NCBI GenBank assembly: GCA_020443425.1
Contig: JAGRIE010000006.1
Coordinates: 84,811 to 148,810 of the forward strand
DNA length: 64,000 nt
Direction of reading: 5' to 3'
Origin: Halioglobus sp.
Lineage (GTDB): Bacteria > Pseudomonadota > Gammaproteobacteria > Pseudomonadales > Halieaceae
Part shown: positions 21,476 to 57,867 of the stretch, piece after piece
Numbering within the stretch: the stretch's first letter is position 1
How the letters are laid out: each line of letters starts with the position of its first letter
Notes under the pieces: generated by a model
What the model saw: the letters and a program-made list of their open reading frames with translations, nothing else
Databases searched by the model: none
Told to the model about the DNA's origin: nothing
Translations under genes and position numbers: made by a program

Positions 21476-21552
<77 letters not shown>

Positions 21553-44526: not shown

Positions 44527-46149
44527 TTACATGCGCGCGATACCAAAGCTGTTCGGCCGCACGCTGCGGTGCCGGGTCTCCCACACGGTTTCCAGCAGGA
44601 AGCCCAGTGTCCTGCGGGTGTCGCGGGGGTCGATCATGCCGTCGTCCAGCATATGGCCGGAGGTATAGAAGGCGCTGGACTGGCTGTCGAAGATATTTGC
44701 CAGGAAGGCCTCCTGTTGCGCCAGCGCCGCCTCATCCGGCTCCTGTCCCAGCGCTGCAGCCTTGCCGCGCGCGACCTCGGACATGGTTTTCGCGGCCTGT
44801 TCGCCGCCCATCACGCCGGTGCGCGCATTGGGAAAGGTGTACAGGAAATCCGGTTCGAAGTGGCGGCCGCACATGCCGTAGTTGCCGGCCCCGAAACTGG
44901 CCCCCGTCATCATCGTGATGCGTGGCACCTCGAGGTTGCGCACCGCCTGTATCATCTTCGAGCCGTGTTTGATCATGCCGGCGCGCTCCGATTTTGTGCC
45001 CACGATGTAACCGGTGGTGTTCTGCAGGAATACCACCGGGATATTGGACTGGTCACACAGCTGCAGGAACTGGGTGGCCTTGGTGGCGCCCTCCGGGTCA
45101 ATGGGGCCGTTGTTGCCGAGAATGCCGCAGGGCAGGCCGAAAATGTCGGCCTGTATGCAGACCGTGGATGCGCCGTAGCGGGACTTGAAGTCCATGAAGT
45201 CGGAGCCGTCCACCACCCGCGCCACCAGCTCGCGCATATCGTAGGGGTTGCGGTAGTCGCAGGGAATGATGCCGGCCAGCTCATCGGCGTCGTACAGGGG
45301 CTCGCGGAAGGCGCGCCGCGCCGGGGTGGCGCAATCCTTGTTCCACTGCAGGCGGTGCATCAGTTCGCGGCACATCTGCACGGCCTGGCCATCGTTCTCG
45401 GCGAGGTATTCCGCCAGGCCGGAAACCGAGGCGTGCATGTCAGCGCCACCCAGTTCCTCCTCCGTGGCGATCTCACCGGTGGCCGCCTTCAGCAGCGGCG
45501 GTCCGGCGAGGAAGGCGCGGCCGTTGTGCTTCACCGCGATTACATAATCGCTGAGCCCCGGCATGTAGGCGCCGCCGGCTGTGGAGGAGCCGTGCAGGAT
45601 GGAGATCACCGGGATGCCCGCCTTGCTCAGTTTGGCGAGGTTGCCGAACAGCATGCCGCCCTGGGAAAAGTTCTCCACGGTATAGTTGATCAGGTCGCCG
45701 CCGGCGCTTTCCACCAGGTGCACGAAGGGCAGCTTTTGCTCCAGCGCGATCTCCTCGCAGCGCCGCACACGATAGCCGGTGGCGGTGGTGAGTGTGCCGG
45801 CCATGATGCCGCTGTCATCCACTACCACCATGCAGCGCACGCCGCTGATGAAGCCGATGCCGGTAATAACGGTGGAGCCGGGAATGGACTTCTCCGGGTC
45901 ACTGCTGTCCACCAGGTAGCCGGCGAGATTGCCCACGGTGAGAAAGGGCATGCCGGGGTCGAGCAGTCGCGCAAGCCGCTCGCGCGGTGTCAGCTGTCCG
46001 CGCGCTTCAAAGCGCGGCTTGCGCTTCTCCGAGATCATCGCGCCGCGCGCGTTCAGGGTCTCCAGCTGGCCGATCAGCTCCAGCATCTCGCGGCGGTTTT
46101 TCGCAAAGCCTTCAGAGTTGACGTTGATCTTTGAATTGAACACTGGCAT
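44527..46149 (-). CDS. atuC: acyl-CoA carboxylase beta (carboxyltransferase) subunit, probable AtuC
   Basis: A 540-residue carboxyltransferase. The N- and C-terminal crotonase-like halves carry GGSSTAGGAYMPGLSDYVI-like acyl-CoA and carboxybiotin-binding regions (HGSSTAGGAYMPG and MTGASFGAGNYGMCGR). This matches the beta subunits of methylcrotonyl-/geranyl-CoA carboxylases. ATG 46149 overlaps the atuA stop by one base (TGATG), with GGAGA 7 bases before. Partner is the biotin subunit two genes on. Confidence 0.87.
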   Translation of the reverse strand: MPVFNSKINVNSEGFAKNRREMLELIGQLETLNARGAMISEKRKPRFEARGQLTPRERLARLLDPGMPFLTVGNLAGYLVDSSDPEKSIPGSTVITGIGFISGVRCMVVVDDSGIMAGTLTTATGYRVRRCEEIALEQKLPFVHLVESAGGDLINYTVENFSQGGMLFGNLAKLSKAGIPVISILHGSSTAGGAYMPGLSDYVIAVKHNGRAFLAGPPLLKAATGEIATEEELGGADMHASVSGLAEYLAENDGQAVQMCRELMHRLQWNKDCATPARRAFREPLYDADELAGIIPCDYRNPYDMRELVARVVDGSDFMDFKSRYGASTVCIQADIFGLPCGILGNNGPIDPEGATKATQFLQLCDQSNIPVVFLQNTTGYIVGTKSERAGMIKHGSKMIQAVRNLEVPRITMMTGASFGAGNYGMCGRHFEPDFLYTFPNARTGVMGGEQAAKTMSEVARGKAAALGQEPDEAALAQQEAFLANIFDSQSSAFYTSGHMLDDGMIDPRDTRRTLGFLLETVWETRHRSVRPNSFGIARM

Positions 46150-47963
46150 CACAGGGTCTCCGCGACAGTGGCCGCAATTGTTGCAGGTACCGGGATGGGG
46201 CAGGACAGTAACAGCTGCGCATATCCCTTGCCCTGGGGGTCGTTGCGCAGGCTGGCGACACCGCCGCCGCCGAGTACATCGTGCAACAGGAAATTGAGCG
46301 CATGGGCGCCGGGCAGGATGAAGCGCTCGACGCTGCCCACTGAACTGTCGGCGAGGAAGTGGGCGAAGCGCGCTCGCACCACGTCCTCGGTCAGCGCCTC
46401 GCAGAGATAGGGCAGGTACTCTGCCCGCCGCGCGATGATGCCGACATTGGCCTTGTCACCCTTGTCGCCGCTGCGCCCCCAGGCCAGGGCGATCAGTGGC
46501 ACCTCGACGCTGTCACTGGCAGCGCTGGGGCGCGGTGTGTCCGGCCGCACAAGCGAGGTGCTGTCCAGCGCTTCACCGTGCGCCTCATCACAGGCCTCAG
46601 TTTCATCGTCCACCGCGATACGCACCTGCACCTGCGCTTTCGGCACAGTGCAGGAGAACAGTCGCACCACCGGCGAGGGACTGGGGCGACTGCCGGCGAA
46701 ACCGGACAGCCCCGGCGGTGTCGCCAGGCCCAGTCCGACCGCTTCCTTCAGCAGGATGCCGATACCGATGCTCTCGGGGTGCTTGGCGGCAATTTTCATT
46801 ACCACCTCGCGGCTGCCGTTGACTTCGCTGAACCGGCCGTACTGGCATTCGGTGCCCATCAGCTCGACACTGGTCTCGCTGAAGTCGGCCAGGCCGAAGG
46901 CGTTGAAGACAGTGCGGGCCGCCTCGAACACGGCGTCGCCGAAGGCGCGGGCCTTGCGATCGGCGTCTATGCCGTAAAAGCTCATATAGGTGCCGCCGCG
47001 AAATTCGTCGGCGTAGGTGGCGCTGACCTTGTAGGTGTCGGGCGCCGGCCTGCCGGTGGCCCCCGACACGGCCACACGGTTCTCACCCACCTGCTCGATA
47101 CGGGCAGTGGAGAAATCACACACCACATCGGGCAGCAGATAGGCCTGTGGATCGCCAATCTCGTACAGCATCTGTTCGCTCACCGTGCCCACGTTCACCA
47201 CGCCGCCGGTACCCTCGGGCTTGGTACAGACGAAGCGGCCATCGGCGGAGATTTCCGCGATGGGATAGCCGATGTTGGCGATACCGGGCACCTGCTCCCA
47301 GTCGGTGAAGTTGCCGCCGGTGGCCTGCGGCCCACACTCCAGGATATGGCCCGCCAGTGAACCCATGGCCAACTGGTCGAGATCGTCGCGACCCCAGCCA
47401 AACGCATGGATACAGGCGCCCAGTGTCACCGCGCTGTCGACACAGCGCCCGGTGATGACGATATCGGCACCCAGTGCCAGCGCGCGGGCGATCGGGAAGG
47501 CCCCCAGATAGGCATTGATGCTGAGGATTTTCTCCAGCCGCGGAAACGCTGCGCCGGAGAACATTTCGGTGACGCCGGCAGCCTGCAGCGCCGCTTGCTG
47601 GTCGAGAAGGTCATCGCCGGTGATACAGGCGACCCTGAGTGGCAGGCCCTGTCCGGCGATCTCGTCCCGCAGCGCCTGCGCACAGGCTTCGGGATTGACG
47701 CCACCGGCATTGGCGATGACCTTGGTGCCGCGCTCCGCAATCAGCGCCAGGTTCGGTTTCATGGCCGCGCTGACAAAATCGGCAGCGTAGCCTTTGAGCG
47801 GGTCTTTCGCCCTGGCGCGCGCCATGATCGACATGGTGATCTCGGCCAGGTAGTCATAGACGATGTAGTCCAGGCCGGGGGAATTCAACAGCTGCGGTGT
47901 GGCCCTGGCGGCATCACCCCAGAAGCCGCTGGCGCCGCCAATACGCAATACCTTGTCTGCCAT
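46149..47963 (-). CDS. atuA: AtuA-like (DUF1446) protein
   Basis: A 604-residue protein with the DUF1446 start IGGASGFWGD and the blocks KVIANAGGVNPEACA and ITGRCVDSAVTLGACIHAFGW; the C-terminal 100 or so residues (LAWGRSGDKGDKANVGIIAR) form the AtuA-associated small domain, which is a separate protein in some bacteria. AtuA is required for acyclic terpene use in Pseudomonas, but its reaction is unknown. It is the first gene of the carboxylase operon; a TATACT (47998-47993) lies 30 bp before the ATG. Confidence 0.87.
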   Translation of the reverse strand: MADKVLRIGGASGFWGDAARATPQLLNSPGLDYIVYDYLAEITMSIMARARAKDPLKGYAADFVSAAMKPNLALIAERGTKVIANAGGVNPEACAQALRDEIAGQGLPLRVACITGDDLLDQQAALQAAGVTEMFSGAAFPRLEKILSINAYLGAFPIARALALGADIVITGRCVDSAVTLGACIHAFGWGRDDLDQLAMGSLAGHILECGPQATGGNFTDWEQVPGIANIGYPIAEISADGRFVCTKPEGTGGVVNVGTVSEQMLYEIGDPQAYLLPDVVCDFSTARIEQVGENRVAVSGATGRPAPDTYKVSATYADEFRGGTYMSFYGIDADRKARAFGDAVFEAARTVFNAFGLADFSETSVELMGTECQYGRFSEVNGSREVVMKIAAKHPESIGIGILLKEAVGLGLATPPGLSGFAGSRPSPSPVVRLFSCTVPKAQVQVRIAVDDETEACDEAHGEALDSTSLVRPDTPRPSAASDSVEVPLIALAWGRSGDKGDKANVGIIARRAEYLPYLCEALTEDVVRARFAHFLADSSVGSVERFILPGAHALNFLLHDVLGGGGVASLRNDPQGKGYAQLLLSCPIPVPATIAATVAETL

Positions 47964-48106
47964 AGTCCTGTTCCCGTCTGCGCGTACGAGGCAGTATAGT
48001 ACTGGATGCATGACCCCGGCACATGCGATTGGATGCCATCCGTGTGGGAGTTGGCGCCATCGGTGGCAGCGCGCATGAGGGGCGCCGTGGGGGGTGGGTG
48101 TGCACC

Positions 48107-49348
48107 CTATGCCTGCGGTGGATCACCCTGCACCGTCGAGGAGACCTGCCGTCCGGCAATCGCCCGCAACAGCAGCAACAGAGCCAGCAGGGTGAACACT
48201 GCCGAGGCGAAAAACGGCGCGCCGGGAAAGTAGACCACCGCGTCATCAGAGCTGAAGTAGGAAAACAGCTGTGTCATGAACGGCGGGCTGAGTATGGCCA
48301 CCAGTCCGCTCATGCTGCCCAGCGCACCCTGCAGTTCGCCCTGCGCGTTGGCCGGGATGCGCGCCGACATAATGCTCTGCAGCGACGGCACCACAAACCC
48401 CTGCAGCGCACCTATCGCGATAATCGGGTACATCATCCAGCCATACGGGACAAAGGCGTAGGCGATAAAGCTCAGCGTGGTGGCGATGAAACCGACGATG
48501 GCGGTTTTTATCGGCCCCCAGATCGGCAGTACCCTGCGGATCAGGAAGGCCTGCACGAAGATCATCGAGACGCCGACAGCGCTCAGTGAGAAGCCGATCT
48601 CGCGTGGCGACCAGTCAAACTTCTCAATCGTGAAGAACGCCCAGGTACTTGGGAGAGAAAAGTGGCCCAGCATGTACCAGAAGTACACCAGCACCAGCGC
48701 GATCACCTCGGGGTAGTGCCAGAGCTGCCTGAAAGCGCCCAGCGGGTTGGCGCGCGCAAGGTTGAACGCGCGGCGGTTTTCGAGCTTGTGCGATTCGGGC
48801 AGTACGAAGTACCCGTAGATCACGTTGATAAATGTCAGGACGCCCGCTGCGTAGAACGGGGTGCGGGGACCGAACTCGCCGAGGAAGCCGCCCACCGCGG
48901 GCCCGATAATGAACCCGGTACCGAAACCCGCGCCCAGCAGTGCGAAATACTGCGCGCGCTTCTCCGGTGGGAAGGTATCGGCGATATAGGCGTTGGCAAT
49001 GCCGTAGGTGGAGGCGGAAATCCCCCCGATGATGCGACCCACAAACAGCCACAACAGCGTCGGTGCCCATCCCATCAACAGGTAGTTGAAGCCCATCGCC
49101 AGTAGCGAGCACAGCAGTACCGGCCTGCGCCCGAAGCGATCAGAGAGATTGCCCAGCAGCGGTGAAGAGACAAACTGCATGCCGGCAAAGGCGAACATCA
49201 GGAAGCCACTGATACGCGCGGCGTGGGTCAGGTCCTCGCCGGAAATATCCATGATCAGCTGCGGCACCACCGGCATGATGATACCGAAGCCGATGGAGTC
49301 CAGCAGTACCGTGACAAAAATAAACGCAAAGGCTAACTGCGGACGCAT
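48107..49348 (-). CDS. MFS transporter of the TetA/TCR type
   Basis: A 413-residue, twelve-segment proton-coupled exporter. The loop 2-3 signature [14 protein letters not shown], the motif B/C region [32 protein letters not shown] and [22 protein letters not shown] are typical of tetracycline-type drug exporters (DHA1). Substrate cannot be told; chromosomal homologues rarely confer tetracycline resistance. GGAGGG lies before ATG 49348. Monocistronic by position. Confidence 0.87.
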
Positions 49349-51158: not shown

Positions 51159-53054
51159 ATGTTCAAAACTATCTTCTTCGCATTGTGTATCACTCTCTGC
51201 ATCAGCGCACCTGTCGCTGCGATTTCGCAGCCAAAGGCAGAGGCGGGTGAGCTCGACCTGCGGCACTGGAGCTTTGAACAGGACGGCACGATTCGACTCG
51301 ATGGTCGCTGGGCGTTCTACTGGGAGAACTTCATACCTCCGCAGCAGCGCGCGCTCGCCAGTGATGAAACCATCATGGTGCCGGGTATCTGGAACGGGCA
51401 TGAGCGCGGTGACACGCAGGTAGTGACAGGCCACGGCTACGCCAGTTACCAGCTGCGCGTGTTACTGCCGCCGGACACCCCGCAACTCGCACTGAAAGTG
51501 GTTGATATCGGCGAGGCGTTCAAACTGTATGTCAATGGAGAACTCCTGCATTCGGCGGGCAAACTGGGCACCAATGCGCAGCACTCCCGGCCGGGCTTTT
51601 CCCGCAGTGTGCTGACATTGCCCGAGGATGTCGGCAGTGAGCTGAACATCGTGATTCACGTGTCGAACTACCACTATCGCAGCGGCGGCGTGTGGAACGT
51701 GATAACGCTGGGTGAGGTGTCGGGAATTCGCACCCTGAACGAACTGGAACTGGGCTATGCGATATTCCTGGTCGGCAGTATTGGATTCATCGCGCTCTAC
51801 CACATCGCCTTGTACCTGCAGCGACGCCAGGACAAATCGCCGCTGTACTTCGGCCTGTTCTGTGTCGCGGTGCTGCTGCGAATCCTTGCCACCGATGACA
51901 GGTATCTGACACTCCTTATTCCGTCCATCTCGTATTCGATGCTGGTGCGACTGGAGTACATTTCATTCCTGTTGGGTATTCCCGCTTTTGCGGGGTTTAT
52001 TTCCCATCTGGTTCCCGGGGCTTACCCGCGCTGGATGTCACAACTGTGCGTGTACATGGGGCTCGTATTTACCGTCTTTGTGATGGTGACGCCGATCGAG
52101 GTGTTCTCGGAATACCTGACGCTATTCCAAATCTACCTGGTAGGGTGTGTCTTGTTTGGTCTGTACGTATTTTCCCGCTGCGTGGTGGAGCAGCGCGAAG
52201 TCGCGAGGGCCTTTCTATTCGGCTTTATCGTGCTTGCGATTGCGATCCTCAATGATGTGTTGATATCGATGGGTGTTATCAGGACGCCTGTCCCTCTTGC
52301 CGGCGCGGGCATGCTCTGCTTTATCATGATCCAGTCCTACTCCCTGTCCCTGCGGTTCGCCAGATCGTTTACCCAGGTCGAGGCGCTGTCGCGGGAGCTG
52401 GAAGGCTATGCCCATACGCTGGAATCCAGGGTGGAGCAGCGCACCAGGGAACTGGAGATTGCCAACACCAAGCTCGAGCAACTGGTCAGCGTGGACGGCC
52501 TCACCGGCATTGCCAACCGACGCGCTTTCGACGACCTGCTCAACCGTGAATGGGTCGGGCATACGCGGCGCTCATCGCAGTTGGCGCTGATCCTGTGCGA
52601 TGTGGACTACTTCAAGCTTTACAACGATTTCTACGGTCACCTGGAGGGCGATGACGCCCTGTGCAAGGTCGCTCGCTGTCTCAGCGACACCCTGCAGCGC
52701 GAAGTGGATACCGTGGCGCGTTATGGCGGCGAGGAGTTTGCAGTTGTGCTGCCCGATACCAGTATTGAAGGTGCGATAAAGATTGCCGAGCGCATCAACC
52801 GGGCGGTGCGCGACCTGCATATCCTGCACCAGGGCTCACCGGTGAGCCATGAGCTGACAATGAGCTGTGGTGTGGCGGCGATGGTTCCAACCGAGAAGCG
52901 CAGGCCGGGAGACCTGGTAGGCCTGGCCGACCGGGCGCTTTACAGCGCCAAGGCGGCGGGGCGGGACCGGGTGGTAGCCGCTGGCAGTGAGCCGGGTACG
53001 GCAGGGAAAAGCCAGCCGGCAAGCGCCGACAGCGAGGTCGCCGAGAATACCTGA
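51159..53054 (+). CDS. membrane diguanylate cyclase with 7TM (DISM) sensor
   Basis: A 631-residue protein: signal peptide (1-22), a periplasmic beta-sandwich (about 30-190, 7TMR-DISMED-like), seven hydrophobic helices (about 195-400), a coiled coil (VEALSRELEGYAHTLESRVEQ) and a GGDEF domain (about 450-600). The active site reads YGGEEF and VDYFKLYNDFYGH is intact, so it should make cyclic di-GMP from two GTP in response to an external ligand. The RxxD inhibitory site five residues before GGEEF is absent (TVAR). Final tail is low-complexity. Confidence 0.88.
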   Translation: MFKTIFFALCITLCISAPVAAISQPKAEAGELDLRHWSFEQDGTIRLDGRWAFYWENFIPPQQRALASDETIMVPGIWNGHERGDTQVVTGHGYASYQLRVLLPPDTPQLALKVVDIGEAFKLYVNGELLHSAGKLGTNAQHSRPGFSRSVLTLPEDVGSELNIVIHVSNYHYRSGGVWNVITLGEVSGIRTLNELELGYAIFLVGSIGFIALYHIALYLQRRQDKSPLYFGLFCVAVLLRILATDDRYLTLLIPSISYSMLVRLEYISFLLGIPAFAGFISHLVPGAYPRWMSQLCVYMGLVFTVFVMVTPIEVFSEYLTLFQIYLVGCVLFGLYVFSRCVVEQREVARAFLFGFIVLAIAILNDVLISMGVIRTPVPLAGAGMLCFIMIQSYSLSLRFARSFTQVEALSRELEGYAHTLESRVEQRTRELEIANTKLEQLVSVDGLTGIANRRAFDDLLNREWVGHTRRSSQLALILCDVDYFKLYNDFYGHLEGDDALCKVARCLSDTLQREVDTVARYGGEEFAVVLPDTSIEGAIKIAERINRAVRDLHILHQGSPVSHELTMSCGVAAMVPTEKRRPGDLVGLADRALYSAKAAGRDRVVAAGSEPGTAGKSQPASADSEVAENT

Positions 53055-53999: not shown

Positions 54000-54209
54000 T
54001 CTCCTTTTCAGCGAAAACCGGGGTAATTTCACCAACAAGTACACATGCCGGCAACTGACGGCTGATTGTAACGCAGCCAGGAGCCAACTATTCATACTGA
54101 CAGGCTAAGTCACGCACGTAGCGCCATTGAAAGTCGATACGCTAGTATTCATGTCAGGCCTGAAGGCTTTCTGTCCGTTGGAGTTCGGGTCAGCACCCAA
54201 CCCTGCATA

Positions 54210-54902
54210 TCATGGCCGTTCAGCTCGCCGGCAGTGCACATTTCCAAACAGGCGCCACAATCCAAGCAAGATCAGAAGATGCGTGCCGGGTGCCGGTATG
54301 GGTTCAACGGTATCCTTCTCACGATAGAACCATGCTCCGACGCCTGGCGCGGGAAAGGCGGTCGCAAGTCTCGCCTCGTTTACCCACGCGCTAACGGAAT
54401 GCAATTCGTTGGGGTCGTCTAACCTCACTATCCTTGCACTTGTTCGGGGAGGATTGCCTAGTAGCGTTGATTGCCAACCAATCACCATAGGCCGATTCCC
54501 GTTGACGTTGGAAGTGAGGCGGAAATCTTCAAAAAACAGGCTCGCAAAATCCTGCGAAGCGGGTGATTGATGCACCCGATCTGTATCAGCATCCAACAGC
54601 TCATCGCTACCATATCCAGCGACCGTCAGATACCGATTAAAAAGCTGTTTGAGATCGTCGCCACTGGCCCATACCCAGCCGGCCAGATCATATCCATTAA
54701 GATTGCTGTCGAGCGAACACACCGAGGCATTGGGGGAAAAGGGACACTGCGCCCGGATATCCAGCCAGGATAGCCTGTCAAAAAGATCAGGCTGAGCCCA
54801 CTCCCGCCCATCGATTGTGACAATATCATTGGAACCAATCGGCACGGCCATGAGTGGAGAGGAGAACAGTAAAATTGCAAACAAACACAAATAGCGGCTC
54901 AT
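54210..54902 (-). CDS. PEP-CTERM-like sorted secreted protein
   Basis: A 230-residue exported protein: signal peptide MSRYLCLFAILLFSSPLMAVP, a body with conserved-looking aromatic and acidic residues, and a C-terminal IPAPGTHLLILLGLWRLF followed by arginines, the plan of a PEP-CTERM exosortase signal with a shortened proline motif. Exosortase would cleave near the prolines. GAGGGAGA lies 7 bases before the ATG. It sits directly after an attC-like site, so it may be a cassette gene. The body matches nothing recognised. Confidence 0.62.
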   Translation of the reverse strand: MSRYLCLFAILLFSSPLMAVPIGSNDIVTIDGREWAQPDLFDRLSWLDIRAQCPFSPNASVCSLDSNLNGYDLAGWVWASGDDLKQLFNRYLTVAGYGSDELLDADTDRVHQSPASQDFASLFFEDFRLTSNVNGNRPMVIGWQSTLLGNPPRTSARIVRLDDPNELHSVSAWVNEARLATAFPAPGVGAWFYREKDTVEPIPAPGTHLLILLGLWRLFGNVHCRRAERP

Positions 54903-54932
54903 ATGTGATTCTCCCTCGGCAAAAGCCGTTAT

Positions 54933-54998
54933 TCCTAACGAGTCTAGCCCAAGCTGTCTAAGTTTTTTGTTGCGCACAACTGGCTGGCTTTGTTATGA
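54933..54998 (-). other. degenerate attC-like site after the 166-residue gene
   Basis: On the minus strand it runs from TCATAAC (54998-54992), which contains the gene's TAA, to GTTAGGA (54939-54933). AGCC and GGCT and an inner GTTG/CAAC hairpin give partial arms. Only the core AAC and GTT are good, so this is weaker than the other two sites. Confidence 0.4.
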
Positions 54999-55493
54999 CT
55001 TCTCATCCTGAAATAACTCCGGCCTAAGTTGGCGCAATCCAAAGCTTAGTTTGCAGCCAGAACCGCCTAGAACTGATTGTGACTTTTTGATCGAGTCCAT
55101 AAGCGGCTTTTTGATTTCCGACAAATACGATGCCACATGGTCGCCAGCTTCCCCGGCCAACTCAAAACTTATGCCACCACTCTCCTCGTATTCTATTGCC
55201 TTGCAAAGTGCTTCTTTCGGTGCTGCGGTAAAAGCACTCACATCAGGTTTGATAGTCGATAATATGGAAAGCGCCAACACCAACTGTAATCCCTCTTCCT
55301 TCTTCCTTTCTTCTGAGAGGATTCCGTTCTCATCCATTAAAGTAATGAAACGAATATTGTCGATGATTTGACTTTTCGCGCTCTCGGAAATCAAGCTCTT
55401 TAGCTCATTACTATAGAGCTGATTAAGGTAAGCACTAACTAAAAACCCACTTACAATAGACCCAACAATTCCACCCAAAATCAAATTTTTCAT
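54993..55493 (-). CDS. unknown membrane-anchored protein (cassette gene)
   Basis: A 166-residue protein with a single N-terminal hydrophobic helix (NLILGGIVGSIVSGFLVSAYL) and a helical, charged remainder with coiled-coil character (KSLISESAKSQIIDNI, EERKKEEGLQLVLALS). AT-rich codons set it apart from the host genes. The stop TAA lies in the R'' core of the attC-like site, typical of integron cassettes. No relative is recognised. Confidence 0.65.
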   Translation of the reverse strand: MKNLILGGIVGSIVSGFLVSAYLNQLYSNELKSLISESAKSQIIDNIRFITLMDENGILSEERKKEEGLQLVLALSILSTIKPDVSAFTAAPKEALCKAIEYEESGGISFELAGEAGDHVASYLSEIKKPLMDSIKKSQSVLGGSGCKLSFGLRQLRPELFQDEKS

Positions 55494-55514
55494 ACGATAT
55501 TCAGCACTTATAGG

Positions 55515-55587
55515 TCATACCGCCGCAAGCAAAGGCGCGCGTTAGCGCGTCCAGCCCGTAGGGCGATTTTGCCTTGCCTTGTTAAGT
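55515..55587 (-). other. attC site (73 bp)
   Basis: Minus strand: R'' ACTTAAC (55587-55581), AAG, arm GCAAG-G-CAAA, a variable middle with GCGC palindromes, arm TTTG-CTTGC, GGC, then R' GGTATGA (55521-55515; canonical would be GTTATGA). The arms pair with one unpaired G, the extrahelical base known to set strand choice in attC recombination. One base in R' is changed, which may weaken recombination. Confidence 0.7.
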
Positions 55588-55623
55588 TGCGCTGGCACAT
55601 TGGTTTTTGGGGTATTTGTGACC

Positions 55624-56067
55624 CTACCGGAAGACGTCCATCGTACCAACTGTTGCCCGATTATCTTTTACCCGACGCTTTAGGAGCCAGCTGCCGTCCA
55701 GGCGTACCCATTCGTCAAAGTACTCCCCTAATGTTCTGAAAGTTAGATTGGATTTCTTTTCTTTGCCTAAGTGCATATCACTAACATAGGACTGACTTGT
55801 AGCTGTATCACCATCGACATATATGACAACATTACCAATGAGATGCTGGGTTGTGCCACAAGCTTCTAGAAACGGTCGAATAAAATCGACTATTTCTCTT
55901 TTCCCTACAATCTCACCCTTGCCAAGATTGGCTCTGGCATCATCCGCTAGTAATTTCTCTAGGGTTTCCCAATCACGTTGATCCATTGCTCGAGCGAACG
56001 ACATTATCTTTCGATAGATTTCGCGCTCTGCAAACAGTATTTCTAGATTCAATGCACTGAACTCCAT
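55624..56067 (-). CDS. SnoaL/NTF2-like protein (cassette gene)
   Basis: A 147-residue protein of the SnoaL-like polyketide-cyclase/NTF2 fold: LEILFAEREIYRKIMSFARAMDQRDWETLEKLLADDA at the start and WVRLDGSWLLKRR near the end are typical. ATG 56067 lies just after the attC R' core; the frame's upstream part runs through the attC and is not coding. Its stop precedes the next attC by about 36 bases. Substrate unknown. Confidence 0.75.
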   Translation of the reverse strand: MEFSALNLEILFAEREIYRKIMSFARAMDQRDWETLEKLLADDARANLGKGEIVGKREIVDFIRPFLEACGTTQHLIGNVVIYVDGDTATSQSYVSDMHLGKEKKSNLTFRTLGEYFDEWVRLDGSWLLKRRVKDNRATVGTMDVFR

Positions 56068-56073
56068 TAAGTA

Positions 56074-56133
56074 ACTTAACGCCTCAAACACCGGCGCAGC
56101 TCTGCTGCGTCCGAGTGCTTTGACTTGTTAACC
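56074..56133 (-). other. attC site (60 bp)
   Basis: Minus strand: GGTTAAC (56133-56127), AAG, arm TCAAA-G-CAC, then CGG and CGCAGC/GCTGCG, arm GTG-TTTGA, GGC, and R' GTTAAGT (56080-56074), a perfect GTTRRRY. One unpaired G in the first arm and the same AAG and GGC flanks as the 73-bp site. The stop codon of the acetyltransferase is inside the R'' core. Length equals the classic 59-base element. Confidence 0.8.
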
Positions 56134-56634
56134 CTTTGCTGAAAAAGACTCATGGTAAGTAACGCTTCCTTGAGGTAAATCACCGTGAAATACCATAGCT
56201 TGGAAATACTCAGGCGGCACACCAGGAAGTACTAAACATTCTCTAGGTTTAAAGCCAAAACGATGATAATAGTTTGGGTCTCCAAGTAACACGCAACCTT
56301 TTGCTTTTATATTCTTTAGCTCTTGGATAGCGGCATTCATAAGCTTGGAACCAATACCTTTACCCTGCTTGTTGGGAAGAACTGAGATTGGGCCGAGACC
56401 ATACCAACTATCTGTACTGTCAGAAATAGTAACCGGAGAAAGCGCCACATGCCCAACGACACTACCTTCATCTTCGGCAACTAGTGAAATTGATAATGCG
56501 CCTGATTCACGAAGCGCTTTAACAATATACTGCTCCGTATTGTCCGTGTGTGGTGCATCAAGAAAAGCGGCAACAGTAACCTCATGGATGTTTTGAGCAT
56601 CCCTTGGTTGTTCTTTTCGAATGCTAATACTCAA
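56128..56634 (-). CDS. GNAT N-acetyltransferase (cassette gene)
   Basis: A 168-residue YhbS-like acetyltransferase. SIRKEQPRDAQNIHEV begins the fold; LGPISVLPNKQGKGIGSKLMNAAIQEL carries the acetyl-CoA loop (QGKGIG) and YYHRFGFKP the end. TTG 56634 is chosen as start: a full AAGGAG lies 8 bases upstream and the N-terminus then matches the family, while an ATG at 56691 is in poor context. AT-rich; GNATs are common in integron cassettes. Acceptor molecule unknown. Confidence 0.82.
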   Translation of the reverse strand: MSISIRKEQPRDAQNIHEVTVAAFLDAPHTDNTEQYIVKALRESGALSISLVAEDEGSVVGHVALSPVTISDSTDSWYGLGPISVLPNKQGKGIGSKLMNAAIQELKNIKAKGCVLLGDPNYYHRFGFKPRECLVLPGVPPEYFQAMVFHGDLPQGSVTYHESFSAKG

Positions 56635-56698
56635 TCGGATATCTCCTTGAGGGTTAACAGTAAAGTATATGCCGTAGCCAAGTGTAGACATTCTGCCT

Positions 56699-56759
56699 AT
56701 ATCTGGACAGGTGTAGGCTCATATAGCCACAGGTGTCTACTAGACATGTGCATATCTGG
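56699..56759. repeat. nested direct repeats around a hairpin
   Basis: ATATCTGG at 56699-56706 and 56752-56759, and ACAGGTGT at 56707-56714 and 56729-56736, the latter enclosing the hairpin GGCT/AGCC (56716-56728). It lies upstream of the acetyltransferase gene, where a cassette border or recombination scar would be expected. Confidence 0.5.
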
Positions 56760-56762
56760 ATA

Positions 56763-56945
56763 TCAGAAGTGCAACGGCTGAACATCAGTACACTTCCCCA
56801 CCAGCCCTTCAATTACTCTATTCTCCAGGCCAAGCGAAACAGCGGGGTTGTAGGGCATTCCCCCAACCTGCTGTTTCGCACTCCAGATGGCGTGGTTCTG
56901 TTTTTCCGCCGCTCGCTGTGTCACTGCTTCAAACGCAATAGCCAT
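56763..56945 (-). CDS. uncertain 60-residue ORF
   Basis: A short frame starting MAIAFEAVTQRAAEKQ and ending at TGA 56763, with codon use like a coding sequence but no visible ribosome site and no recognised domain. It lies between the crotonase gene and the cassette cluster and might be a remnant. Confidence 0.25.
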   Translation of the reverse strand: MAIAFEAVTQRAAEKQNHAIWSAKQQVGGMPYNPAVSLGLENRVIEGLVGKCTDVQPLHF

Positions 56946-56994
56946 GGTGACGAACTGCCTGCGTCGATGCGCGTGAATTGGGCTCAGGCGGTCG

Positions 56995-57867
56995 TTACCA
57001 CCAGGGGTAAAAGTCGGGCATATCGGTAGAGGTTCGGTCCTCAAATACCGGGGCGCGTTTTTCCAGGAATGAGCGCACGCCTTCCTTGCCGCTTTTCAGG
57101 CTGGCGTAGTAGATCGCCAGTGAGTCCACCTTGTGCGCTTCAATCGGGTGCGGCTGCGCTGAGCAGCGGTACATCATCTGCCGGGTCATGGCGATGGCTA
57201 CCGGGCTGTGCTGGGCGATCCGGCGGGCGATCTTATAGGCCTCCTCCAGCAGTTCATCGGCGGGTACAACGGCACTGACGAAGCGGCCTGCCAGCGCCTG
57301 CTCGGCCTTCAGTATCTCGGCGGTGTACACCCATTCAAGCGCCTGCGAGATACCCACGATGCGTGGCAGGAACCAGCTGGAGCAGGCCTCCGGTGTGATG
57401 CCGATTTTGTTGAACACAAAACCGATGCGCGCGTGCTCGGAGGCGAGGCGGATATCCATGGCGCAGGTCATGGTGGCGCCGATACCGACGGCCGCGCCAT
57501 TGATGGCGGCGATCACCGGTTTGTTGCAGTCGTAGATCGCGAGAGTCACACGGCCACCCGTGTCGCGAACGCCGGCGATAATCTCGGGATCGTCCAGGCG
57601 GTTTTCCATATCATCCATGGTCGGGTTCAGGCTCTCGTTGAGGCCGAAGACATTACCCTCCACCGAGAGGTCCATGCCGGCACAAAAGGCGCGGCCTTCG
57701 CCGGTCACTACCACCGCGCGCACCTCGTCGTCATCGCTGGCCCGATTGAAGGCGTCTATCAGTTCGTGGGCCATCTCTACAGTGAATGAATTGAGGTGGT
57801 CAGGACGGTTGAGCGTCAGGGTCAGGATGTTGTCGGCGACTTCATAGCGCAGAGTGTTGTAGGACAT
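56995..57867 (-). CDS. enoyl-CoA hydratase/isomerase family protein
   Basis: A 290-residue crotonase-fold protein. GRAFCAGMDLSVEGN and NGAAVGIGATMTCAMDIRLAS form the oxyanion hole; FVFNKIGITPEACSSWFLPRIVG places a glutamate in the usual second catalytic position. The C-terminal SFLEKRAPVFEDR is typical of hydratases acting on larger substrates. GGAGA lies before the ATG. It begins 36 bp after the DGAT gene and is read in the same direction. Confidence 0.87.
   Translation of the reverse strand: MSYNTLRYEVADNILTLTLNRPDHLNSFTVEMAHELIDAFNRASDDDEVRAVVVTGEGRAFCAGMDLSVEGNVFGLNESLNPTMDDMENRLDDPEIIAGVRDTGGRVTLAIYDCNKPVIAAINGAAVGIGATMTCAMDIRLASEHARIGFVFNKIGITPEACSSWFLPRIVGISQALEWVYTAEILKAEQALAGRFVSAVVPADELLEEAYKIARRIAQHSPVAIAMTRQMMYRCSAQPHPIEAHKVDSLAIYYASLKSGKEGVRSFLEKRAPVFEDRTSTDMPDFYPWW

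Follow-up and report, generated by a model that had tools for sequence, protein, structure and literature searches.

A gene cassette array without a local integrase starts at an attI-like core beside a MEVIRT gene remnant in Halioglobus sp.

Introduction

How do gene cassettes come to be lined up at a chromosomal place that holds no integron-integrase gene (intI), and can such an array still exchange them? The question is raised by a block of small leftward genes in the draft genome of Halioglobus sp. (Halieaceae; assembly GCA_020443425.1; 4.33 Mb, 222 contigs), which we analysed within a stretch of 64,000 nucleotides, called the window hereafter (contig JAGRIE010000006.1, positions 84,811 to 148,810; G000:C189:84811-148810 in our numbering). 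Positions are those of the window unless a contig or locus is named, and the comparisons draw on 18 genomes of the genus, the own genome included, and on 140 genomes of the family. We find that the array starts at an attI-like core next to the remnant of a gene, MEVIRT, whose intact product is a protein of 130 residues (MEVIRTIRPG...), and that this arrangement recurs in front of arrays at unrelated loci. Judged from such sequence comparisons, the block is probably an integrase-less array that starts from an attI-like docking site far from intI, on which the host IntI would most likely act in trans.

Clusters of attC sites lacking integron-integrases (CALINs) are usually defined by at least two attC sites without an integron-integrase, and 2961 of them are counted against 2760 complete integrons (PMC9024848). 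Off-target insertion by an IntI encoded elsewhere, loss of intI and rearrangement have been proposed as their origins (PMC8618304). CALINs of Xanthomonas are described at preferred loci, contrasting with scattered attG insertions, and the same report states that integrase-less arrays can be mobilised in trans (PMC12444791). To explain insertion at the attI of Vibrio cholerae, host factors that are still missing have been postulated (PMC8191803), and attI sites outside class 1 are called poorly described (PMC9024848).

Results

Gene cassettes in the window

The two attC sites of the block are far beyond chance. They were detected with a covariance model, R1, that contains no window sequence and was built on intI-linked arrays of relatives, with 16 of the 18 first-aligned sites, which our own scan had chosen from 5 of the 10 fetched intI loci. 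Up to an E-value of 10, R1 matched only two sites in the 64 kb, site A (56074..56133; 55.5 bits, E 6.9e-12) and site B (55514..55587, matched over 55515-55587; 49.5 bits, E 2.6e-10), both on the minus strand that also carries the genes. A second model, R2, built on the 76 R1 matches in the 52 MEVIRT loci described below, returned the same two sites in the window (56.0 and 53.4 bits, respectively). When single-strand folding was compared with 200 shuffles, none was as good as site A (z -5.28) and three were as good as site B (z -2.78). In a gene cassette the R'' of its attC pairs with the R' of the site before it, and along the three cassettes delimited here this complementarity extends, from the sequence, to 7/7, 7/7 and 6/7 bases. 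GTTAACC, the R' at the start of cassette 1, thus pairs in full (7/7) with GGTTAAC, the R'' of site A, and the 6/7 exception is located in the R' core of site B, which reads GGT in place of the consensus GTT. That the block arose from misjoined contigs or accidental attC-like hairpins is extremely improbable: the assembly is a draft of 222 contigs and arrays do break assemblies, but the window contig holds both flanks, the related arrays of genomes G014 and G008 lie inside contigs of 274,784 and 325,806 bases, and E-values of 1e-10 to 1e-12 speak against chance hairpins.

The block holds two certain gene cassettes and probably a third, all on the minus strand. Cassette 1 (56080..56657) encodes a GNAT acetyltransferase (open reading frame (ORF) 56128-56691; PF13508, E 1.3e-12) and cassette 2 (55521..56079) a SnoaL/NTF2-like protein (ORF 55624-56091; PF13577, E 4.9e-25). 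The probable cassette 3 (54939..55520) encodes a 166-residue protein (ORF 54993-55493) with a hydrophobic N-terminus by eye and no family above cut-off; the protein was found in 1 of the 140 family genomes, its own, with no such unit elsewhere, and had no plasmid match. A weak match of its residues 59-136 to the PADLOC effector model PDLC00752 (E 1.7e-4) is possibly due to chance. What points to the attC-like site C of this cassette (~54934..55000, minus strand) is its position, together with an R'' that pairs with the R' before it at 6/7 bases; R1 and R2 both failed to match it, and it folds no better than shuffles do (z +0.65). A candidate for a fourth attC near 54066-54183 was rejected (no R1 or R2 match, fold z +0.32). 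As this leaves no supported attC to the left of the PEP-CTERM-like ORF (54210..54902, minus strand), that ORF is no more than a candidate cassette; its PEP-CTERM-like tail was recognised by eye, and at E<=1 it matched no family of Pfam or NCBIfam.

The first-pass annotation of this stretch had described an AT-rich block of four small leftward genes with two strong and one to two weak attC-like sites. The four leftward ORFs are indeed in place (within 54210-56691), and the composition is as described, with a guanine plus cytosine (GC) content of 0.43-0.48 in the intervals of 54750-56750, 0.58-0.65 on the right side, and 0.50-0.57 in most intervals leftward of the block back to ~53250. Both strong sites stand, one weak site persists as site C and the other does not; of the cargo it had named, the GNAT and NTF2-like assignments hold, and the PEP-CTERM-like gene exists as a candidate cassette gene. 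At gathering scores Rfam yielded nothing in the cassette block, the sole match in the window being a tRNA at 21476.

Both certain cassettes have counterparts in other arrays. The SnoaL cassette is 91.6% identical in DNA over 55522-56082 to L066:15732-16290 in the array of G014, and at neither end does this alignment deviate from the predicted cassette boundary by more than 3 bases. For the GNAT cassette, positions 56109-56658 align with 87.3% identity to a cassette in the MEVIRT array of G008 (G008:C8); here the right end of the alignment is 1 base off the start point of the array, and on the left it stops within attC A, leaving the last 29 bases of the cassette uncovered. The two matches argue that cassettes of the block move between loci and species.

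The start point and its flank

The array starts at 56657/56658, and the same nucleotide of a shared flank is the start of the arrays in G014 and G006. At this point lies the attI-like core CATATACTTTACTG (56658-56671, minus strand), whose flank is homologous and whose start point is identical in these two relatives. The core forms the left end of a head (56658..56762, minus strand) that contains two iterons of the CCATATCTGG/CCAGATATGG kind with one mismatch each. Next to it, a six-frame view reveals the remnant of a MEVIRT gene (56778..57008, minus strand; G000:C189:141588-141818) that covers residues 50-126 and lacks the N-terminal part; it is 51% identical to the intact G006 protein (E 1.6e-20), and the gene is broken in G014. 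By eye, the remnant also contains an inverted repeat at 56834-56879 (GCGAAACAGC...GCTGTTTCGC). At their common start point the first cassettes differ in the three closely related species, with the note that the G006 contig stops inside its first cassette, so that no attC is visible there. The extent proposed for the block in the first-pass annotation, 54150-56660, encloses the cassettes, but the start of the array sits at its right edge and the head, reaching to ~57008, beyond it, and had been overlooked.

The right flank is formed by a crotonase/enoyl-CoA hydratase gene (56995..57867, minus strand; NF006109, E 1.5e-136), present at E<=1e-80 in 11 of the 18 genus genomes, own counted. Of the 10 fetched relatives with this crotonase locus, none repeats the gene content and order of the window, and attC models do match, so that the condition named in the first-pass annotation as refuting a cassette cluster does not hold. 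G016 and G004 lack the whole stretch from the GGDEF gene to MEVIRT and have an MFS gene (48107-49348 in the window) directly beside crotonase, and in G008, G002 and G011 it is the gene of window positions 46149-48011 that takes this place. The leftward genes sit between a GGDEF protein gene and crotonase in the own genome and in G014. This GGDEF gene (51159..53054, plus strand) is their left limit in both, its homologue in G014 (L066:5611-7380, 69% identical) lying to the left of the array; in G014 the interval measures ~18 kb of mostly low-GC leftward genes, with attC sites in the right-hand ~10 kb. A simple presence or absence of the block between a GFA gene and crotonase, as had been envisaged, is thus not what the relatives display, since the leftward genes are placed between GGDEF and crotonase in the own genome and G014, and the flank and start point are common to the window, G014 and G006. 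A precise empty site at crotonase was not found either, G016 and G004 being devoid of the whole stretch and G012 having an unrelated insert. This insert of ~4.5 kb beside crotonase (L030:7486-11750) contains, by eye, FAD monooxygenase-like, GFA-like and methyltransferase-like genes and gave no attC matches; the place therefore takes up more than cassettes. Within the crotonase-locus array of G014, a transposase-like ORF is discernible by eye (L028:2748-4319).

MEVIRT heads in front of other arrays

A MEVIRT gene with an attI-type core, often with iterons, is a recurring head that is co-directional with attC arrays, and the window carries it with a truncated gene and two iterons. In the family, MEVIRT is found in 5 of 140 genomes; attC sites follow downstream in four of them, and the fifth is G006 with its contig end in the first cassette. 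A profile search detected MEVIRT, complete or partial, in 24 of 390 genomes of the order and 12 of 369 of the class, own counted in both. In addition, a scan of named genomes with one peptide pattern, which is not exhaustive, yielded a set of 52 loci. Almost all of their titles name Gamma- or Betaproteobacteria or genera of these groups, together with two Acidobacteriota, one Riflebacteria and one Kouleothrix bin.

The position of the attC sites relative to the gene is nearly invariant. In the 52 loci, where 464 kb upstream and 218 kb downstream of MEVIRT were searched, 75 of 76 R1 matches (E<=0.1) and 110 of 112 R2 matches (E<=0.05) are located downstream, all of them on its strand. The exceptions are in L137:3769-7281, where two attC precede MEVIRT on its strand, possibly as part of tandem arrays; the contig ends 94 bases past the gene. 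Among the 41 loci with at least 600 bases downstream, attC sites were present there in 14 with R1 and in 23 with R2, for which the matches are partly so by construction; the hand-compiled counts per locus add up to 117 instead of 112 and are used as presence or absence only. The remaining 18 are taken up in the Discussion. A partially overlapping set gave the same picture: 35 of the 38 profile-search loci L071-L108, the own locus and two second pieces being omitted, contain 19 attC at E<0.01 by R1 in 14 loci, all downstream of MEVIRT and on the same strand, and several of these loci end at a contig edge.

Between the MEVIRT stop codon and the first cassette, the 52 heads contain 49 iterons of the CCATATCTGG/CCAGATATGG type, as compared to a mean of 0.56 and a maximum of 3 over 200 shuffles, the motif having been derived from the same 52 heads in which it was counted. 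Controls yielded none in 20.7 kb just upstream of MEVIRT, one in 18 kb of other control sequence and one in 27 intI upstream regions. At least one iteron occurs in 22 of the 52 heads, and in 6 of the 26 heads of a second set (11 matches). Many heads end in a core before G|TT, such as GTCTACATCACGTTAGGC in Sulfurisoma (L180) and TATACTTGGCTGTTATG in G008. We rejected MEVIRT as a cassette of its own: in the heads read, an attI-type junction and no attC hairpin follows the gene, and in 9 of the 52 loci intI is just upstream. Insertion of the cassettes at a chance attG-like site, beside which the head would be a coincidence, belongs to the published proposals for CALINs (off-target insertion; PMC8618304) and is very unlikely in this case, as the start point is kept in three species and MEVIRT, again with an attI-type core, stands upstream of attC at unrelated loci.

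Relation to the host integrase

The own genome has an integron elsewhere, and the block of the window is locally a CALIN. With at least two attC sites and, by a TIGR02249 search of the genome, no intI on its contig C189, the earlier designation as a CALIN is borne out. The same search matched contigs C11, C99 and C158. An integrase-free genome is contradicted by C99, the last ~96 bases of which encode a C-terminal IntI fragment (TIGR02249 positions 283-314, 46.6 bits). Beside this fragment stands a gene that we take to be dnaE2, and intI has the same neighbour at 7 of 10 loci fetched from the genus, where an intI match over the cut-off is found in 10 of 18 genomes. The search for further attC sites, which scored 150 of 2403 candidates in the whole genome, revealed a second array on contig C160 with eight matches up to E 1; read as a locus of its own (L065, G000:C160:8000-26245) it contains twelve matches up to E 0.11. 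Towards the end of C160 there is an IS3-like transposase by eye, and a HigA-like ORF in L065 is, again by eye, nearly identical to one in the MEVIRT array of G014:C1 (L069:8185-8478). In G002, eight near-identical 60-base attC sites follow intI at distances of ~280-400 bases (L040:2490-4880), and their cassettes resemble repeated copies.

In 9 of the 52 MEVIRT loci intI is a close neighbour, with a match of ~300 residues or more at 86-234 bp upstream of MEVIRT; eight of these intI are divergent from MEVIRT, and the one in L175 is co-directional with it. The remaining 43 loci contain no intI in the flanks examined, up to 10 kb per side, and the same two IntI queries recovered 27 of 27 known intI loci. 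Elsewhere in the genome an integrase is the rule: IntI is found at E<=1e-40 in 34 of 38 MEVIRT genomes, in 33 of them over the curated cut-off. In sets of 390 and 369 genomes, taken to be identical to those of the profile search, IntI occurs in 19 of 24 MEVIRT carriers versus 169 of 366 others in the order (p 0.0014) and in 11 of 12 versus 135 of 357 in the class (p 0.0002), with the own genome scored as an intI miss in both tests despite its fragment. In six single-contig genomes the distance from MEVIRT to the nearest intI is 0.5-3.1 Mb along the contig.

The head cores were further compared with the attI of the intI locus in the same genome. For 17 pairs the summed likeness is 228, while permuted pairs have a mean of 200.3 (sd 5.0, maximum 227) and 0 of 20,000 permutations were as high. 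The choice of head cores was made by eye; of 18 cores the second one of G014 was set aside as coming from the same genome, so that 17 entered the permutation, and one head core was lengthened by 2 bases beforehand. The best pairs agree in 18 of 18 bases in G843 and 16 of 18 in G236 and G008. In the six best pairs the likeness is a core of 15-23 bp, and in the three genomes just named it is restricted to 16-23 bases around the crossover, which would reflect a constraint set by one common recombinase and not the duplication of a locus. As the own intI is cut by the contig end, the own attI lies outside the assembly; the window core CATATACTTTACTG|TT agrees in 11 of 14 bases with TATATACTTAGCTG|TT, which lies upstream of intI in G014. 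The resemblance of head cores to the attI of the own integron in other carriers argues that the host IntI would most likely serve the head in trans.

These data also bear on the reading of the block as a relic, an ordinary MEVIRT-type integron that lost intI and retains leftover cassettes with nothing moving now. That intI still stands beside MEVIRT in 9 of 52 loci is in line with such a history, as are the truncated MEVIRT of the window and attC B with its departure from the consensus. The differing first cassettes at a common start point in three close species and the cassettes shared with other arrays instead require activity after the species split, and the cores follow the attI of a present, distant intI whose gene is enriched in carriers; we consider a relic unlikely.

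The MEVIRT protein

The intact MEVIRT protein of G006 belongs to no Pfam family, and NCBIfam and PHROGs yielded nothing below E 0.03. The closest likeness is to DUF5710 (PF18974), seen over a short C-terminal stretch in 7 of 18 MEVIRT members (best E 1.3e-6), with the difference that the member shown in full reaches 20.7 bits against a Pfam cut-off of 26.5 and that the N-terminal part of MEVIRT is left uncovered. A structure model from 46 sequences combines helices and strands (pLDDT 92, pTM 0.58). Two queries found no MEVIRT relatives on plasmids. The iterons beside the gene lead us to guess that MEVIRT is a putative DNA-binding or recombination helper or regulator; an equally simple reading makes it an ordinary leader gene whose promoter also serves the cassettes.

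Discussion

The mechanism that would account for these observations is the following. The head module, consisting of MEVIRT, an attI-type core and often iterons, would form a remote docking site for cassettes, and the host IntI, encoded elsewhere and here beside the dnaE2-like gene, would insert and shuffle cassettes at the head in trans. Several observations weigh against this mechanism. At the locus itself MEVIRT is truncated, and in the GNAT match the cassette boundary is exact on one side only. In the larger set, 18 of the 41 loci with at least 600 bases downstream are without attC by either model; 10 of these 18 are Betaproteobacteria by title, and betaproteobacterial attC can be of another type (L179). 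The iteron is absent from 30 of 52 heads, and other clades would therefore have other repeats or none. On the side of the integrase, 4 of the 38 MEVIRT genomes (G156, G166, G314 and G379) are without IntI at E<=1e-40, G379 carrying a large array yet no such IntI, and the own intI locus ranks first for 6 of 17 head cores and not for the other 11. Finally, the best fold match of MEVIRT in the PDB (E 0.79) and the best solved sequence (E 0.53) are not significant. We nevertheless regard docking at the head with IntI supplied in trans as the probable explanation. Because MEVIRT is truncated and site B is off the core consensus, the copy in the window may be inert or closing down.

In the terms of known systems, the block resembles other CALINs in its two or more attC sites, its co-oriented small genes and the lack of intI nearby, and differs in the recurring head with a MEVIRT gene or remnant, often iterons, and an attI-type core. 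With sedentary chromosomal integrons it shares attC cassettes at a fixed chromosomal place that begin from an attI-like G|TT; unlike them it has no intI at the locus and a small co-directional gene beside the start point. In the 9 of 52 MEVIRT loci where intI is present too, the difference is that MEVIRT stands between intI and the start point. A further parallel is found in the Xanthomonas CALINs away from ilvD, integrase-less arrays at few preferred loci with intI elsewhere; the accessible sections of that report name no head module (PMC12444791). CALINs, and conserved CALIN loci away from intI, are thus already known, and a head gene with its own attI-type core is apparently new: we met no account of one in the literature searched, which mostly missed subscription journals and preprints, and it may be in print.

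The occurrence of integrase-less arrays with such heads suggests dedicated remote docking sites kept by cells. A bolder proposal, which we put forward tentatively and hold to be rather doubtful, is that many integrase-less arrays, far from being debris, are remote stations of one integron system, where a putative DNA-binding MEVIRT on the iterons beside a second attI would recruit or license the distant IntI, so that one integrase would serve several arrays. If true, MEVIRT would act as a helper devoted to attI x attC insertion, like the suspected missing host factors of sedentary integrons. The recurring head helps to predict attI sites and, with its attI-type core and a candidate helper gene, makes the questions of CALIN origin and of host factors testable.

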